Source of the DNA: Rhizodiscina lignyota
Lineage: Eukaryota > Ascomycota > Dothideomycetes > Aulographales > Rhizodiscinaceae
NCBI GenBank assembly: GCA_010015805.1
Contig: ML978123.1
Coordinates: forward strand, 1,240,001-1,304,000
Direction of reading: 5' to 3'
Length of the DNA stretch: 64,000 nt
A model generated the notes under the pieces. It was not told the origin of the DNA, did no database searches, and was given only the letters and a program-made list of their open reading frames with translations. The translations under genes were made by a program, and so were the position numbers. How positions within the stretch are numbered: position 1 is the stretch's first letter; every line of letters starts with the position of its first letter. Positions 33,909 to 64,000 of this stretch are shown piece after piece.

Positions 33909-35770
33909 TTAGACCATCATTCCAACAACAGCAGCCACGACAAGCCCAAACAGACTCGCCCTCCCATCTACAGCCACAGGAGCGGCACCTGTAAACTGCG
34001 CTGGTGATGCGGTGCTGCTGCTAGTGCTGCTACCCGTAGGGCTTTGTCCTCCAGGGCCTCCCAATCCACTCATTATCGCCCCGCCGAGTCCACTGCTAGT
34101 TTCGGCAGCTCCAACTGGGAAGGATATAGGAACGCTGCTTTGTACAGCGCCACCGAAGGCGCCACCGCCATAGCCGATGACCGCCTCCGTCACCGAAGAG
34201 GAGCCAGATGATACGACAGTGAGGCGAACAGGTGTACCTTGTACGTTGACGCGAGCACCGTCCAAAGCAATGGTGTGGCCGTCCGCGATGATTGCCGGGA
34301 TTGAAGTTGCGTGGCCATTTACAGTTGTAGCGACAGCGGTAGGAGTGACAGGCACATTCGAGTGGCCGACGACGATGGCAGGGCCTGAACCTTCGGACGA
34401 TGATGATCCCCCATTTCCACCTCCATTGCTGTTGCTACCACTTCCACTTTGGCTGTCGCTTCCAGAGCTTCCACTTGAAGAGCTTCCGCTTGAAGAGTCG
34501 CCATTCGAACCCCACGCACCTCCATTATTTGATTGACCACTCCCACTTCCTTCTCCTGAGCTTCCACTGGACGAGCCTCCACTGGACGAGCTTCCACTGG
34601 ACGCGCTTTCACTGGACGAGCTTCCACTCTGGGAGCTCCCACCCCATTGTCCACTCTGGGAGCTTCCGCTTCCTTCACCATTGTGACCGCTAGATGATCC
34701 ACTATTCCCAGAACCATGGTTTCCAATGATTGAAGGAATGAGGCCACCTAGAGCTCCACCAAGTCCTTTTGATGTTGTTTTTGCGGGTGGTGACCCTCCT
34801 CCTCCATACCCATTGCTTTCTGGCAGTCGCGTTGGCGAACCCGTTGGGATGTTGACGTGACTCGTGGTCGTCGATGTTAGGTATTGAACGCTTGTATGTG
34901 TTAACGGGCTCTGACTTGATTCCGGACCAGGTACAGAGAAAGATGGAGCGGAGGCCTCTGGCGCGGTTATAGCAAATGTGCAGCTTGCGACTGGTGCTTG
35001 AGCAGAGAACTGCGTTTGGTACCAGGATATGAAGGAAGAGGTGTCAATATCGTCGGCACCAAATTCGGCGGGAACGAGAACGTGGTAGCTTCCGAGCCGA
35101 TCGCCTGTAGAATTCTGGATGAGTGAAGTCGGGATGGGAAACGAAGGATGCGAAGGCGGGACGATCGTGTCAAAGTCGAAAGTTTTGCAGACTTTGCCGG
35201 TGGAGAGATGGCCATCTTGAATCGTATAGTTCGCGCCATAGTCGATGAAAGGAGTTGGCCAGGTTATCACTGTTGTAACAGTACTTCCTGGCCCTCGGTC
35301 TATGGTCAGTGTCGTTCTTGCTGGCTTTCCGGGCGTTGGATAGTTCGCTGTGACACTGGGGTGGGCGTATTCGGTGCTTGTTGAGGTCTGATTCGTTGCA
35401 TTGTTGACAATATAAATCAACGTTGCAACAGTCACATCGGTCGTGGTCGAAGCATTGTAGAACACCGAGGACCATGTATATTCAACGATATCTGGGAATT
35501 GGATATCACATTCTGCGGCGCACGACGAGTTGCTGTAGCCTCCTGGACGACCACTGGGGCTGATGGTTGTGATCGGCGGCGCCGTTGCTGTTGATGCTAT
35601 TATAGTAGTGGCTAGAGACCGAGCATAATTAGTGACTCGACAACTCTATCGCGCCTGGGGGTTCCAAGATATTCGAAAGGGAACATACAGCGAGCGGTAA
35701 CATTCGAAGCGAGTAGTATGAGATTCAGCACCCTCCAAACAAGTGTCCGGGAAACCGATATTGATCCCAT
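33909..35770 (-). CDS. Ser/Gly-rich GPI-anchored cell-surface protein, unknown function
   Basis: Minus-strand exons 35770-35689 and 35611-33909 encode 594 residues. The first exon gives a hydrophobic signal peptide (VLNLILLASNVTAR) after MGSISVSRT. The N-terminal 200 residues are Thr/Ser-rich with a few cysteines (SSCAAECDIQFPD, GKVCKTF, ASCTFAI) and several N-glycosylation sequons, suggesting a small extracellular domain. A 130-residue low-complexity Ser/Gly tract follows, then a conserved-looking block (HTIALDGARVNVQGTPV). The C-terminus is hydrophobic (ASLFGLVVAAVVGMMV) after a small-residue site, which fits a GPI-attachment signal. It is probably a wall or plasma-membrane glycoprotein. 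The Ser/Gly tract is encoded by imperfect 9-15-bp repeats, so its length may vary between strains. Confidence 0.85.
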
Positions 35771-37078
35771 CGTTCTGGGTATCACGTCACGCGACGCTTC
35801 GTCTCTTTACTCCCGTCCAGCAGCAGTTGATGAATACTCCGACATGAAGCAAGCGAGTGACAGTCAAGTGTTTTCAAGATCGGAAGATCAAGAAGGAGAT
35901 TGACGGCTAAGTCTCAGCCTCCATCGCCGGTCGCCATCTCTACCTTGGTTTGCCCCAGCAGCAAATCCCTTTCACGGGCCATAGGAAGCCCACTGTTCCT
36001 GTTTGAGCGAGTTTTGGGGTTTGGTGGCTTATTATTAGAGCGGAGGCGGTGCTGTTGGCCGCAATGTCGTCCAATCATACCACCTTGTGCCCTTTCACCC
36101 TGCAGTAGAACCTTGGCACTTCCATTATGTAAGGAGAAGTGCGGCTGTCCTGCAGCAAAATCCTTTGCGGGTGGTCTCCCGCTAGAGAACGACCGACGGA
36201 TTCGACTTGCTGGGATGGATACGAGACTTCTGAACTGCACTTGCAAACCGGATGGATGACGTAGATTGGTTCAAAAGAAAGCCTCAAAGGGAACTGAAAC
36301 AGGAGATATGAAGAATTTATACTGTAGAAGACTCTATGAAGCGACACGGAGTGAAATCTGACCTTGCTGATGGAGAATGCCCCTGTCCTTGCCGGATCTC
36401 GATTTACGCCACACGGTGCCTTGCTTAACCGATGTAGCCGTAGCCGTATGTACCGCCATGTTTGTTTTGCCTAAAGAAAACTGGGAGAGGCCAACAATCG
36501 CAATGCAAACTATCACATTGGACCGAGCTTTCGACTAAAATTATCTGCTGGATAGTGGATGAAGAGGCTTGGTATTTATCAAGAAGGTGGCTAGTAAAAA
36601 CTGGAAAACAGAGAACACAGCTCTCTCGAAGTCCACGAGGGCACTAAGACATATAGTCGGGAACCTGGTAAAGATACTCTACCACTCGTCAACAATATAC
36701 TGACAATACAGTCAATAATATACTCATAATACAGCCAACAATATACTCATACTACAGCCAACAATATACTCATAACATAGCCAGCCTCCTAAGTAAAGCC
36801 AGTCGAGAGCTATTCTCCTCTCAAGGTGCGGTCGTTGCTCTCTGTCCTTGTATCCGCCTCTAGTCAAATTTCAAGATCAAATCGTTGTCGAACAGTGGTG
36901 ATGGACAACGCATCAGCTCAGTTCAAAGACGCGTTCATATTCCAAATATGCCCTCCCTGGAAGAGCTCTACACCAGGATCTTGAGAACCCCATTTATGAA
37001 GCTTGCAAATGCAATTTGGCGCATTCCAAGCGGTAGCGAAAAGCATGGATATATCCGAAAAGGTTGCAAAAAGTCGCC
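35771..37078. other. Intergenic region with AT-rich tandem repeat
   Basis: This is 1.3 kb between the start of the GPI-anchored protein and the stop of COG4. It contains the 23-bp tandem array at 36690-36781 and otherwise only short open frames. There is no sign of transposase or reverse transcriptase text. Confidence 0.5.
36690..36781 (+). repeat. Tandem array of four 23-bp AT-rich units
   Basis: The units start at 36690, 36713, 36736 and 36759. Their consensus is caacaatatactcataatac plus agc. The third and fourth copies differ at a few positions only, and the first has a tgac variant. The array is flanked by unique sequence. Confidence 0.9.
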
Positions 37079-52978: not shown

Positions 52979-55900
52979 ATGCGCCTCTTGGAGCGCAAAC
53001 CCGACGGCGATCTCGTCCTTCGCGAATTCACAAGTAAAGACGTGCCCCCTTATGCCATACTTTCTCATAACTGGGGGAGGGATGAGGTTAGCTTTCAAGA
53101 GGTAGAAGCCGGTACCGGCAGGAACAAGGCTGGCTGGAAAAAAATTAACTTCTGCGCCAAACAAGCCAACGCGGATGGCCTTCGATATATCTGGGTGGAT
53201 ACCTGCTGCATAGATAAGAAGAATGCGGTAGAGCTTTCAGAGGCTATCAACTCTATGTTTCGTTGGTACCAGAAGGCTGCGCGGTGCTACGTCTATCTCT
53301 CGGATGTCTCGATAGATGGAGAGCTCGGGCAATCCAAGTGTGAATGGGAAGTAGACTTTAGGGAAAGCCGATGGTTCACTCGGGGCTGGACGCTTCAGGA
53401 ACTGATCGCACCTGCGTCAGTGGAGTTCTTTAGCTTAGAAGGCAGGCGACTCGGGAACAAAATAACATTGGAGCCAACGATTCATGAGATCACCGGCATC
53501 TCCGCAAGTGTTCTCAGAGGAGATGCACTGTCGAATTTCACTATTGACGAGCGCATGTCATGGGCAGAACATCGAAACACCACCGTCGAAGAGGATAAAG
53601 CCTACTGTTTACTTGGTATTTTCGACGTGTCTATGCCATTGATTTACGGAGAGGGAACCAACAAGGCCTCAAGGCGGCTTAAAGAAGAGATTCACAAGTC
53701 TTACAAGGGTACGCAGCTCTTGTTGATACGGTGGCAGAATCAAAACTAATCAGCGTAGGCACTGACTTCGACCGATTTGCTGTTGGACTCAATCTCTTGG
53801 CTATTCCTGAAGCTGTACAGTTCGTTGCAAGAGAAACGGAACTCTCGGAGATGTACCAGCTACTTCACAGGCCTAGCGCTCGATCAGCAGTTGTCCTTCA
53901 CGGGCTTGGAGGAATTGGGAAGACTCAGTTGGCGATTGAGTACGCCAGACGACACAAGGAGAAATACACGGCAATCTTCTGGTTGAACGCAAATGACAAG
54001 AACTCACTTAAGCTGAGCTTTCGAGACATTGCTCAGCAGGTCCTAATGCATCAACCTTCAACCACTGTTCTGGCCAGCGTAAATCTAGACGAGGACCTTG
54101 ACCAAGTCATGAGCGCAGTCAAGGCCTGGCTCGACCTCCAAAAGAACACGAGGTGGCTGATGATCTATGATAATTACGACAATCCTAGAACACCTGGCAA
54201 TCCCGACGACTCTACAGTCGATATACGTCAATTCCTCCCGCGCTCTGACCACGGTTCGATTATCATTACGACACGATCGTCACAAGTCAGCCAAGGTCGT
54301 CGTATCCATGTCCAGAAGTTGGGAAGTATTCAGGAAGGTCTTGAGATTCTGTCGAATACGTCTAAACGGGAGAGTATTAATAACGGTGGGCAATTCGAGA
54401 CATTGAATGTAGTTCACGAGACTGACGCGAACAGATCCTGACGCAATAGTGCTGGTCAAGGAGCTTGACGGCCTGCCTCTGGCTCTGGCCACGGCTGGTG
54501 CTTACCTAGAACACGTGACGACGAGCTTCTCAGATTATCTTCGGCTCTACAAGGCGTCATGGCTAAAGCTTCTGACGACGAGTCCGCAATTGAGTTCCTA
54601 TGAAGACCGCAAACTATACACAACATGGCAAATTACCTTCGATCGGATCGAACAGCAAAATGCGGCATCAGCAAAATTACTCAAACTGTGGGCATATTTT
54701 GATAGGCAGGACGTGTGGTTCGAGCTTCTTCGACATGCAAACTCCGCCGACGATGAATGGATACAGAAGCTCACTGAGGACGAACTGAACTTTAACGAGG
54801 CTGTGACTCTGCTTTGTTCTTTTGGGCTAGTCGATTCAGATCGGCCACTTATGCAGCAATTCGGGCCTGACACGTATAGCGTGCACAGTTGTGTGCACTC
54901 ATGGTCGGTTTTTATACTTAACAAGGAGTGGGACGATAGCTTAGCAAGGCTGGCCTTGACTTGCGTGGCCTCAGAAGTTCCCGGCATAAATGAGAGAGAC
55001 TGGTTGCTCTTACAACGGCGACTCCTTCAGCACGCAACACAACTGGACCTCTTTATAGGGGATGGCAAGATGGATATAGCCGGACTTAGTTGGGCTCTTA
55101 ATAATCTGGGCACTCTTTTCTCCATCCAAGGCAAGCTGGCCGAGGCAGAGGAGATGTACATCCGAGCGATACAAGACTGTGAGGACGCACTCGGACCGAA
55201 GCACAAATGTACACTCGATACGGTCAACAACCTAGCTATCCTCTATGAGAAGCAAGGCAAGCTGGCCGAAGTAGAGGAGATGTATATCCGAGTACTACAA
55301 GGCTGTGAGGAGGCACTCGGACCGAAGCACATATCCACACTCCAGACAGCCAACAACCTAGCTAACTTCTACTCTGACCAAGGCAAGCTGGCCGAAGCAG
55401 ATGAGATGTACATGCAAGCGCTACAAGGCAAGGAGGAGGCACTCGGACCGAAGCACATATCGACACTCAAAACAGTCAGCAACCTAGCTGTCCTCTACTC
55501 TGACCAAGGCAAGCTGGCCGAAGCAGATGAGATGTACATGCAAGCGCTACAAGGCAAGGAAGAGGCACTCGGACCGAAGCACATATCGACACTCAAAACA
55601 GTCAGCAACCTAGCTGTCCTCTACTCTGACCAAGGCAAGCTGGCCGAAGCAGATGAGATGTACATGCAAGCGCTACAAGGCAAGGAAGAGGCACTCGGAC
55701 CGAAGCACACATCGACACTCCAGACAGTCAATAACCTAGCTATCCACTACTTTGACCAAGGCAAGCTGGCTGAAGCAGAGGAGATCTTTATCCGAGCGCT
55801 ACAAGGCAAGGAGGAGGCACTCGGACCGAAGCACATATCGACACTCAAAACAGTCAGCAACCTAGCTGTCCTCTACGAGAGCCAAGGCAAACTGGATGAG

Positions 55901-56242
55901 GCGGAGAAGATGCACGTTCGAGCGCTGCAAGGCTACGAGGATACTCTTGGCCCTGGACTTGTGTCGTCTTATCTACCGGCGGTGCACACTATGTGCGCCC
56001 TTGGTGACTTCTTCTCGCAAACCGGCCGAAAAGATATGGCAAAGACAATGTACAATCGAGCATTGTCTGGATATACCGCGGTCCTAGGACCTTCCTCAGA
56101 ACGGGTTGGTGAGATCGAACGTCGGCTTCAAGCATTACAACTTACGCCGGCTGAGACCGAGACTCAACATACGCCTACTGAGATTAGAACGTCCGAGACC
56201 AAATCTCCTCTACAGAGACTTTTCCGCAAGCTGAGAATATGA
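52979..56242 (+). CDS. NLR-like STAND protein: HET - NB-ARC - TPR
   Basis: Exons 52979-53708, 53759-54385 and 54435-56242 encode 1054 residues. The HET domain (residues 1 to about 150) shows MRLLERKPDGDLVL, PPYAILSHNWG, IWVDTCCIDK and RGWTLQELIAP. NB-ARC begins near residue 270, with P-loop GLGGIGKTQ (292-300), Walker-B-like WLMIYDN (376-382), IIITTRSS and GLPLALATAGAYL. From residue 662 run about eight 42-residue TPRs of the kinesin-light-chain type (LGPKHISTLKTVSNLAVLY). Both introns are about 50 nt with ctaat/ctgac branch sites, and removing them restores NB-ARC motifs across the junctions. In fungi such proteins control heterokaryon incompatibility and perhaps immunity: repeats sense a ligand, the NTPase oligomerises, and the HET effector triggers cell death. 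Two TPR units are identical in DNA. The frame is complete. Confidence 0.93.
55187..55942 (+). repeat. 126-bp tandem repeats encoding the TPR array
   Basis: Unit starts (gcactcggaccgaagcac) fall at 55187, 55313, 55439, 55565, 55691 and 55817, exactly 126 bp apart, with degenerate units before and after. Units 55439-55564 and 55565-55690 match at all 126 positions, silent sites included. The neighbours differ at roughly ten to thirty positions. The reading frame is preserved in every unit. Confidence 0.95.
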
Positions 56243-60280: not shown

Positions 60281-63200
60281 TCAAAGCTCTTCATCATTCC
60301 CACTTTCATCATCGACGTCGTCATCGTGTTCAAAGAATTCACTCTCCTCGGTATCGTCCATGTCTTCCTCGTGATCATCATCACCGCCCTCACTCCCCTC
60401 GACCCCCTCCCAAACCTCCTCCTCCTCAACCTCAATCTCCATTGCGCTCGGCCCTTCAGCACTCGCAGCAGCATCAGGTTCGCGCTCGGCCAGACTCACA
60501 CTGTCCGCCTGCGTGTCCCCTCCGAAGTATCCGTATCCTCCCAGCGGACCTCCAGCGCTATACGGCGTAGCGTAAGGGATGGCCGGCCCCTCATTCTCTC
60601 CCTTTCGCCATGCTGCATACGCCGCGTCGACGTTGCTGAGGCCTCCAGCGCTCGAAGGCCCGGCGCGGCTGTCGTATCCGCGGGAGGCAGGCGCGTCGAC
60701 GAGCGTGACGAAGGGGGAGGGTGGGTCGCGGCTGCGGCGCGGGGTGGGCTGGTGCACTTTACGGGGACTGTCCTTTATTTGGATCTGCGAAGTCCCATGT
60801 GTATATAAACTCATGTTGTACTCCGAGTCTGAGGGCCAGTCCGACTCTGCGTTGTGCGTGAGCCGGATTGTGCGGTCGAATATGGCCGAGCGCGTTGACT
60901 CCTGGCCATTGGAAGGCCCAGCTCTCGCAGATCTAAGAGATGAAGCGGCTGATGTAGTTCCTGAGGCCTGTGTGATGCGTCTCCGTTTCGACTCCCGCAT
61001 CTTCGGCGGCGACTGTGATACCCTGTGTACGCTTGGGCGGGGAGAAAGGCGTTCTGGCTCTCCGCTGCGCGCACCGATGGTATTACGGCGGCGAGGGACT
61101 TGACTGTCAGCGGCTCTTGCTTGTTCGAAAGACGCAACGCGTCGCTTTGCGGCCTCTTTATGTCGAGACAAGCTTTGCCCGGACGCCGGAGCAGGAGCAG
61201 ATGCCGAGAACGAATTCACCAAAGGACTTGAAGCCGTTCGTTGATGGTGGTGTTGGGGAGGTTGCTCGGATAGCGGAGTTATTAGAGCTCGTGGCTCCAA
61301 AACGAGATTCATCCTCGCCGGAAGCGTTGGGATGTCATGCGGGTGTCGAACGTTTGTATTCGGGGAGAGCTGCACGGGCTGCTGTCTCTCCGAGGTCCCA
61401 CTGAAGCTGGATGCAAATGAAGAATGTACCGATTGCGGTGGATCGAAGGCCGGGTTCCATGCCCAACAGAGCTCTCTTGCGTCCGCTTCACCGACTCCTG
61501 GGGCTTGTCCACCGTCTGTAGTAGCATCTGTGCCGGCATCAACGACTCTAGGCAGCTCTCTAAGACTCTGCCAGGTCAGTTCAAGCTGCTCATCCTCGCC
61601 AACCCGTTGAAAATAGGCAGCCTTTGTAGTTACAAAGAGTCGCTTGCTACCTCCAGGCACCCGCATGAGCGTGTCGGATGCCAGGAACTGGGCGTCCCAT
61701 AGCGCTGGACTGACGAGCTCAGATGGGCTGAGAAAGCGCAGCCGGTGAGATTTGCGGACTTTACGCAACGGTATGATCGATTCCTGAAGACCAAGAAGTG
61801 ATTTTGCAGGATGATAATCAGCGTCATCCCCGAAGGATGCTTCGTGTCGATCCGCCCCATGGGCCTCCAAGACACCTCTGAACGCATGATGAAGGGCCTT
61901 GTGCAGTTCACGAGCACCGCCGCTAGATAGTGTTATCTTGCGAACGAAACCACGGCTGCGCAACCGCTTGTACGCAGTCGTAGAAAGTCCACAAGCGCGT
62001 GGGACAAGCCACGCTTTACTAGAGGCATCAGCCCAATCATAGATCGCTTCGTTGGTCCATCCACTGTGCGCGCTGTTAAAGGAATGAGAGGCAGAACGGA
62101 TGGCGGACGACTTCAAGCTGTGTGAGGTCCATTCGCTCGAAACTTGGGTGTACTCTTCATCACCTTCGTCAGAGGACATCCAGATACCTCGCAATTGGCG
62201 GCCCCAGGGGAATAGAACGACCTCGATTTCCCAAGGTCGTGCTGCAGATGGTAGTTCGGTAGCTTCCAGGACTTCTAAGCGCTCTTGGATATCCATCAGC
62301 TTGGCTTCGGTTTCTTGGCGATCGATTGCAGCTTGAATAAGCGCCGACGATGTGACTGAGTGTGCTGATATATTTGATCCAAACGAAGCACCAATATCGG
62401 GTTGAGCGGTATGATAACGACGTGATCTGGAAAGGCTAGTTTGGTCATCCTCCATTGCAGTGTGGAAATCGTCGTGCTCCTTTACGCGACCCTCAAGCTC
62501 AAGAACACGGCCCTCAAAGAAATCAAACCGGTTCTGAAGTTCTTCAGGAGTGACATGTTCGAAAGAGACATTTTGCAGGGCGTCTACACGCTGAGAAAGT
62601 CCCTGTAGCAATGTTGAGAAATTCGGGTACACCTTGAGGTGGTCGAGGAGTCTGTTCAAAGGCTGCAGTAACTGCTGTAGGGTCGTAGGCAGCCGCTGAA
62701 GGGCATTGCTAGCGTTGTCGGGTCCTTGCTGAGCATTGGGTGCATCCATCGCCGGAGCATCAATGTGACTCGCGCTATTACGCGGCAAATCATTACGCTG
62801 ACCTGCCTGATTGATTGCAGCTGCTTGAATCGATACATCCTCTGCCAAACTCGTCGCTTCTTGGACGTAGCGCTGAATTTCTGTGAGATCAGGCGTAGCC
62901 TTAATACTTGGAGTGTTCAACTCTGTCGCACTTAGAAGGCCGTTGGGTATCCCTGCCTCGGTGGGAAGGTCAAGGGGAATTTCCAAAGGCGGGCCCATAT
63001 TTCTCATGTTGAGTGCGTGTTGAATGAAATCACGATTCGGAGTGTTTCTGTGTAGAGGTACATCTACTGAAGGATTTACAGTAGAAGGAAGCGATTCACT
63101 CGGAAACATGCTGAGCAGATTGGCCATCTCCAGTGGGTCATCTGGTACAGTCGGCGTGGGACTTTGGTCGAATGGTGCGCCTCCCATTGACCTTCCTTGT

Positions 63201-64000
63201 AAAGAGAGACCAAGTCCAGCTGCAATGGACGGTGGCCTTGATGATGGACCATGTGGAAAGCCGCTGATGGCATTGTTTTGCCTCTCAACATAGGAGTTGC
63301 CATTCTGAGTATGGTTCGCTTGAGGACGATAACGGTGCTCGTTCCCAGGAGGATGTGAAGTGTTAGCCTGAACACCCTGGAATGCGTCAGCGATGTCTTG
63401 GTACATGTACGGACATGTGAGTTCGATTGCACAGAAGGCTCCAAGTTGTGTCGAACGTGTCACTCCGGGACGGTTCAAGCTCACACAACCCTTCCACAAC
63501 CTTAGCGAAAACAGCAAGGCAGCATCTTGGAAATGTGCCCGCGAATGAATAATTGATACTGGAATGACTTACGTTGGGAGCTTCACGCTGTCTCTCGGGT
63601 GAGTCTGGTTGAGAGGAGAGCTGCTCTACGATGCGATGAGATCCCGCCGCCGCCTGCTGTTCGAAGCGTGCCACCACACTGCTAGGTCGATCCCCATGAG
63701 CAGCTTGGGCACCATTTGCACCATTCCTCGGTGTTGTAATGACTACGCCAAGCCGCTTGCCGTGTTCAACTCCTCGGAGGCTCACAGGATGCGAACCGGC
63801 CATCAACTGAAATCGCGTGTCCCCGCCATTCGACGACGCAAGCTGCAAGAAGACCGGTGATTTGTCTGTCAAGGCAGCCTGTAACGGCGAAGAGTCTACG
63901 ACAGCTTTATCTTGCTGTGGCCGCTCATCATGGAAGCATGCGTGATGAGAACAGAAGCAGATGTACGACGCATCATCGCTTGTAGCTCTATGCAGGGCAT
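60281..64000 (-). CDS. Large unrecognised fungal protein, 5' end outside the window
   Basis: Two exons are visible: the window edge to 63573, and 63376-60281, joined in phase 0 (intron 63377-63572). At least about 1170 residues are present. Near the edge is a Cys/His cluster, ICFCSHHACFHDE, that could bind zinc. The middle has a Pro/Asn-rich region, a coiled coil (about 62100-62660: FDFFEGRVLELEGRVKEHDD) and a folded block (WLVPRACGLSTTAYKRLRSR, ELHKALHHAFRGVLEAHG, LRKVRKSHRLRFLSPSELV). The C-terminal 400 residues are disordered, with basic clusters (ESKRRRITQ) like a nuclear signal, and end in a strongly acidic tail. I do not recognise the family. A nuclear or chromatin role is inference from composition only. 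The alternative acceptor six codons downstream (63358) is also in frame. Confidence 0.75.

Follow-up and report, generated by a model that had tools for sequence, protein, structure and literature searches.

A twinned TPR unit with the make-up of a two-parent chimera in a predicted HET/NB-ARC/TPR receptor gene of Rhizodiscina lignyota

The window analyzed here, i.e. the whole stretch of 64,000 nucleotides from contig ML978123.1 of the ascomycete Rhizodiscina lignyota (GCA_010015805.1), carries on its plus strand three open frames, of which one encodes a HET domain, one an NB-ARC domain and one a series of TPR_10 repeats (ORF and Pfam searches). The effector-NOD-repeat order is present and the three domains all score above their Pfam cut-offs, but they form a single frame only with two predicted introns (Table 1). 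The HET match spans approximately the first 100 of the 146 profile positions, predicted exon 2 contains an intact GLGGIGKTQ sequence that we take, from its motif pattern, to be the P-loop, and TPR_10 matches seven stretches of exon 3. NB-ARC reaches 34.1 bits, over its own cut-off; NACHT, with 19.4 bits, stays below its cut-off (26.7). Based on this domain content, the gene is predicted to encode a HET/NB-ARC/42-residue-TPR STAND receptor (NLR) of fungal type, and its earlier assignment to the NLR/STAND genes by a reading of the letters alone (hereafter the sequence-only reading) is upheld by the domain scores.

Table 1. Predicted exons, predicted introns and TPR units of the receptor gene (positions in the window)
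Feature	Position	Strand	Basis or remark
Exon 1 (predicted), HET domain	52979..53708	+	Pfam HET PF06985 3e-14, 54 bits, cut-off 22.5
Intron 1 (predicted), 50 nt, GTACGC...CTAAT...CGTAG	53709..53758	+	would lead from HET frame to NB-ARC frame without stop
Exon 2 (predicted), NB-ARC first part, P-loop GLGGIGKT	53759..54385	+	Pfam NB-ARC
Intron 2 (predicted), 49 nt, GTGGGC...CTGAC...AACAG	54386..54434	+	frame-restoring pair
Exon 3 (predicted), NB-ARC end, linker, TPR array, C-terminal tail	54435..56242	+	open frame, stop at 56242
First, diverged TPR unit	55061..55186	+	71/126 to next unit
TPR unit 1	55187..55312	+	101/126 to unit 2
TPR unit 2, second half common to units 3 and 4	55313..55438	+	117/126 to unit 3
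Perfect self-repeat, offset 126, 274 bp	55436..55709	+	148-base exact run
TPR unit 3, chimera, twin of unit 4	55439..55564	+	126/126 to unit 4
TPR unit 4, twin of unit 3	55565..55690	+	126/126 to unit 3
TPR unit 5, not homogenized	55691..55816	+	110/126 to units 3 and 4; 99/126 to unit 6
TPR unit 6, first half equal to first half of units 3/4	55817..55942	+	offset 378 run

Each predicted intron is one of 15 frame-restoring GT-AG pairs (40-120 nt) and the choice among them is a judgement, which for intron 1 was made on its length and its branch-like motif. Both show a GT, a CTRAY branch-like motif and an AG. The predicted spliced protein has 1054 residues. Its NB-ARC score increases to 43.1 bits and the end of the match moves from profile position 175 to 209; the scores of HET (54.0 to 48.7 bits) and AAA_16 (37.6 to 35.6 bits) decrease. 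At the intron 2 joint, the alignment of the spliced protein with a paralogue that is encoded in one frame (L043) is gapless. Given these two assumed short introns, the gene is apparently intact. The location of the three domains in three separate open frames could also be that of a decaying pseudogene, whose repeats would reflect a neutral turnover of tandem DNA devoid of any sensing role, and both the somewhat lower HET score of the spliced model and the dN/dS of 0.88-1.01 found in four of the five pairs involving TPR unit 1 point in this direction. However, GT-AG introns of 49-50 nt with branch-like motifs can bridge both frame breaks, the NB-ARC match gains from splicing, exon 2 has kept an intact P-loop and exon 3 remains open over 1,808 bases, up to its stop. 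We consider such a decay very unlikely.

The array contains six similar units (55187-55942) preceded by a weaker one, and TRF reports a 126-bp period with 6.5 copies and 88% matches, a period that confirms the 42-residue TPR unit. Units 3 and 4 do not differ at any base, including the approximately 28.7 silent sites per unit, exactly as the sequence-only reading had described, and their match even runs past their borders (an exact run of 148 bases at offset 126, with 55436-55583 equal to 55562-55709). The same reading considered the flanking units as clearly diverged, which is right for unit 5 (87% identity) but overstated for unit 2 (93%, with a 67-base exact run with unit 3, 55368-55434). 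The identity of units 3 and 4 is beyond chance. Since TPR units have structural residues in common and 22 of the 42 positions are invariant in the six units, one could imagine that protein-level selection keeps units 3 and 4 alike without any exchange. However, none of their silent sites differs whereas dS is 0.12-0.57 in the other unit pairs, and the adjoining unit 5 differs by 13%. Selection without exchange is thus extremely improbable, and pure selection as a sufficient cause is refuted by the silent sites.

This identity had also been interpreted as the trace of a very recent event, a dating that the counts do not carry. With no difference in 148 sites, the divergence is bounded at approximately 0.02-0.03 substitutions per site (95% upper bound), and the silent sites alone give an upper bound of 0.10. 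For clock rates assumed to lie between 1e-9 and 1e-8 per site per year, this corresponds to up to approximately 15 or 1.5 million years. The divergence of units 3 and 4 is lower than that of every other adjacent pair of similar units, and zero differences do not by themselves prove recency within the species.

This work revealed a feature of the twinned unit that is reported here for the first time: it is a mosaic of the sequences of two parents, unit 6 and unit 2. Compared to unit 6, unit 3 shows no difference in nt 1-60 (0/60) and then 21 differences in nt 61-126 (21/66; Fisher 2e-7), while compared to unit 2 it shows 8 differences in nt 1-55 (8/55) and then a single one in nt 56-126 (1/71; p 0.01), the split points of these half-units being picked from the data themselves. 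At offset 378, an exact run of 82 bases connects 55417-55498 with 55795-55876. Runs of variable sites such as those of pairs 2-3 and 3-6 were reached in one of 20,000 column shuffles (p 5e-5 each). This shuffle test was done on the five distinct units, i.e. 10 pairs, for a corrected p of 0.0005 each, and with all six units it gave p 5e-5 and 1e-4. In the control, made on three other arrays of the genome, one of the 26 pairs passes the corrected threshold of 0.05 (0.017, array L042). The homogenization of the repeats by exchange, already proposed from the letters, is therefore supported by a mosaic of two parents.

A search of the whole genome (33.4 Mb) for the 126-bp unit, in which the best candidates were scored, gave matches only in the array itself (seven places). 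As no match to the unit was found elsewhere in this genome, its donor seems to be located within the array. Conversion from another gene was considered and set aside because the search matched the array only; this search scores the best candidates and is not a proof of absence. The most economical reading calls for two or more exchange events, and not the single duplication or conversion of the sequence-only reading. With a single unequal crossover that involved units 6 and 2, unit 5 would have been duplicated as well; as unit 5 is seen once, a further event would be needed.

We estimate at about 0.8 the probability that the array is the sensor of a fungal HET/NB-ARC/TPR STAND receptor and that it evolves by exchange within the gene, a chimera having been formed first and then duplicated or spread by conversion. 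According to this scenario, the 42-residue TPR units would evolve through exchanges inside the gene: (i) a half-unit would have moved between unit 6 and a unit 3 that resembled unit 2 (or the reverse), generating the chimera by a crossover at nt 55-61, and (ii) the chimera would then have been duplicated by 126 bp, through unequal exchange or slippage, or would have converted its neighbour. Since 126 is a multiple of three, the gain or loss of units would keep the frame, and would lengthen, shorten or recombine the concave binding surface. The order and direction of these events, like the introns, are those that we infer, and the data are compatible with either direction of the half-unit transfer and with either a duplication or a full conversion, which cannot be told apart. 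In such a receptor, a ligand would bind the TPR array, its binding would switch the NB-ARC domain and the HET domain would then drive cell death.

RIP can be read from the TpA/ApT and CpA/TpG indices, which give a mixed picture here. The former is 1.12 in the array vs 0.61 in the window, which leans to RIP, and the latter is 1.32 vs 1.30, without such a lean; both ignore codon use.

It should also be emphasized that repeats of this kind are difficult to assemble. NLR repeats of 126 bp are misbuilt in short-read assemblies, in which repeats are omitted, created or chimeric (PMC12222747), and the perfect stretch of 274 bp is longer than a usual short read. Furthermore, the TPR array of another NB-ARC/TPR gene of the genome is interrupted by 518 Ns (L055:2567-3084, i.e. 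C1:581566-582083 of the genome). This N run could reflect a gap in the scaffold where repeats were left unresolved, in which case it is a warning that TPR arrays are hard to assemble here. The twins or the chimera could thus be an artefact, the assembler having duplicated, omitted or stitched 126-bp units. Against this, the window is devoid of Ns, the array is one open frame with an exact 126-bp period, and position 55435 is a G but positions 55561 and 55687 are As, so that a mere triple reading of one unit would not yield units 2, 3 and 4. The same pattern was moreover found by PCR to be real in Podospora strains (PMC4986451). An assembly artefact is, overall, unlikely.

The same genome was searched for other loci by protein, TPR_10 or NB-ARC match, which gave 19 loci, one of them spoiled by Ns. 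No identical adjacent pair was seen in the other 18 among the three best of the 11 offsets tried for each locus. The best of these controls, L044, reaches 104/126 at offset 126 (longest run 19) and 108/126 at offset 252. This locus (C23:81122-81625, minus strand), located on a small contig, contains four similar TPR units (91-103/126 in pairwise comparisons), two of which have an in-frame stop, and looks like a decayed TPR array. Among prokaryotes, the search concerned the best 80 of at least 151 relatives with 42-residue TPRs (found with a two-unit profile), most of them from metagenome-assembled genomes, in which perfect repeats may be collapsed. None of these 80 loci shows 126/126 at offset 126, the best one reaching 121/126, and the longest exact run among the 25 prokaryotic loci listed is 73. 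Close prokaryotic relatives of the whole 597-aa frame were not found.

Among the six units, 20 of the 42 residues are variable. Seven TPR positions (2, 5, 9, 12, 13, 33 and 34) are the most variable ones and are ligand-facing, on the concave side (PMC1261162). In the motif-based register that we derived from the TPR_1 match (unit position = n + 9), six of these seven positions vary in the array compared to 14 of the 35 others (p 0.034), in line with the ligand-sensing variation expected by the sequence-only reading. For positions 2, 5, 9, 12 and 13, which belong to the first helix of the motif and form a subset chosen after the data were seen, all five vary compared to 15 of the 37 others (p 0.018; p 0.0018 for the distinct residues). 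Pairwise dN/dS between units ranges from 0.34 to 1.01 and exceeds 1 in one of the 14 pairs that have differences; no indication of positive selection is seen among the six units.

The crossover at nt 55-61 would join the ligand-facing positions 2, 5 and 9 in the state of unit 6 to positions 12 and 13 in the state of unit 2. Exchange may in this way build new binding units, which duplication would then spread. That the array diversifies through such a shuffling of half-units and that the locus is an active, strain-variable receptor for allorecognition or pathogen sensing is a tentative proposal, which we hold to be possible rather than probable.

Exchange within a receptor array, the reading that we prefer, has parallels in known fungal systems. 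The passages of PMC4986451 on repeat conservation indicate that 21.2% of the TPR repeats of fungal NLRs have a high internal conservation, that the TPR motifs of this class mostly have 42 residues and that such repeats are preferentially paired with certain N-terminal domains, HET being one of them; a HET/NB-ARC/TPR protein is also listed there in Botrytis (B. fuckeliana T4). In Podospora strains, the number of units differs at all eight ANK and TPR loci tested (8/8), and the TPR locus examined has its variable sites on the concave side (PMC4986451). The class of "highly conserved repeats" requires an identity of more than 85% across 100 aa or more, by a procedure of its own. By the mean pairwise amino-acid identity used here, only units 2-4 exceed 85% (92% over 126 aa, compared to 83% for units 2-5 and 75% for all six).

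The closest of these systems are the NB-ARC/TPR NLRs of Podospora anserina (Pa_2_10340), which share with our gene an NB-ARC followed by TPRs, mostly of 42 residues, with near-identical units (PMC4986451). Their variable residues are concave, a likeness that the motif register may suggest for our gene, and the N-terminus of Pa_2_10340 is sesB-like instead of HET. Polymorphism of unit number has been shown in this class (PMC4986451), whereas a single genome was read here. The sequence-only reading had chosen het-D/het-E as its comparison. These genes are HET-NACHT-WD40, and the proper match is the NB-ARC/TPR class (PMC4986451). The HNWD genes (het-d, het-e and het-r) do share with our gene a HET domain, a STAND ATPase, near-identical C-terminal repeats of 126 bp and repeat exchange, but they combine NACHT and WD40 (PMC12222747), whereas Pfam finds not this combination but NB-ARC and TPR repeats at our locus. 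Furthermore, they are genetically proven incompatibility genes, and their exchanges also extend to other members of the family (PMC12222747), whereas the search of this genome gave no second copy of the unit. PLP-1 of Neurospora crassa is also an NB-ARC/TPR receptor, which triggers cell death; this role is proven and its partner SEC-9 is known, and its effector is a patatin instead of HET (PMC12881547).

Solved TPR arrays (4y6c and 4y6w) and kinesin light chains match the TPR array in sequence, with 1.9e-15 for 4y6c ("anserina putative kinesin light chain") and 1e-35 for kinesin light chain 1. Kinesin light chains are cargo adaptors and, unlike the gene described here, are not known to carry NB-ARC or HET.

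Judging from its sequence features, the locus fits the known NB-ARC/TPR class of fungal NLRs, to which it would add a visible two-parent chimera; what is known about this class is unchanged by it. As the chimeric unit and its twin can both be seen in the sequence of one genome, steps of sensor diversification become readable. If strains differ in the number or order of units, the locus would be a candidate allorecognition gene.

Elsewhere in the window, a 1078-aa open frame of the minus strand (60281-63517) has no Pfam match at 1e-5, and neither has a 518-aa open frame of the same strand (33909-35465), which contains 15-bp tandem repeats (34464-34628, two TRF rows). A 23-bp tandem repeat with 4.1 copies is located at 36690-36783 (TRF).
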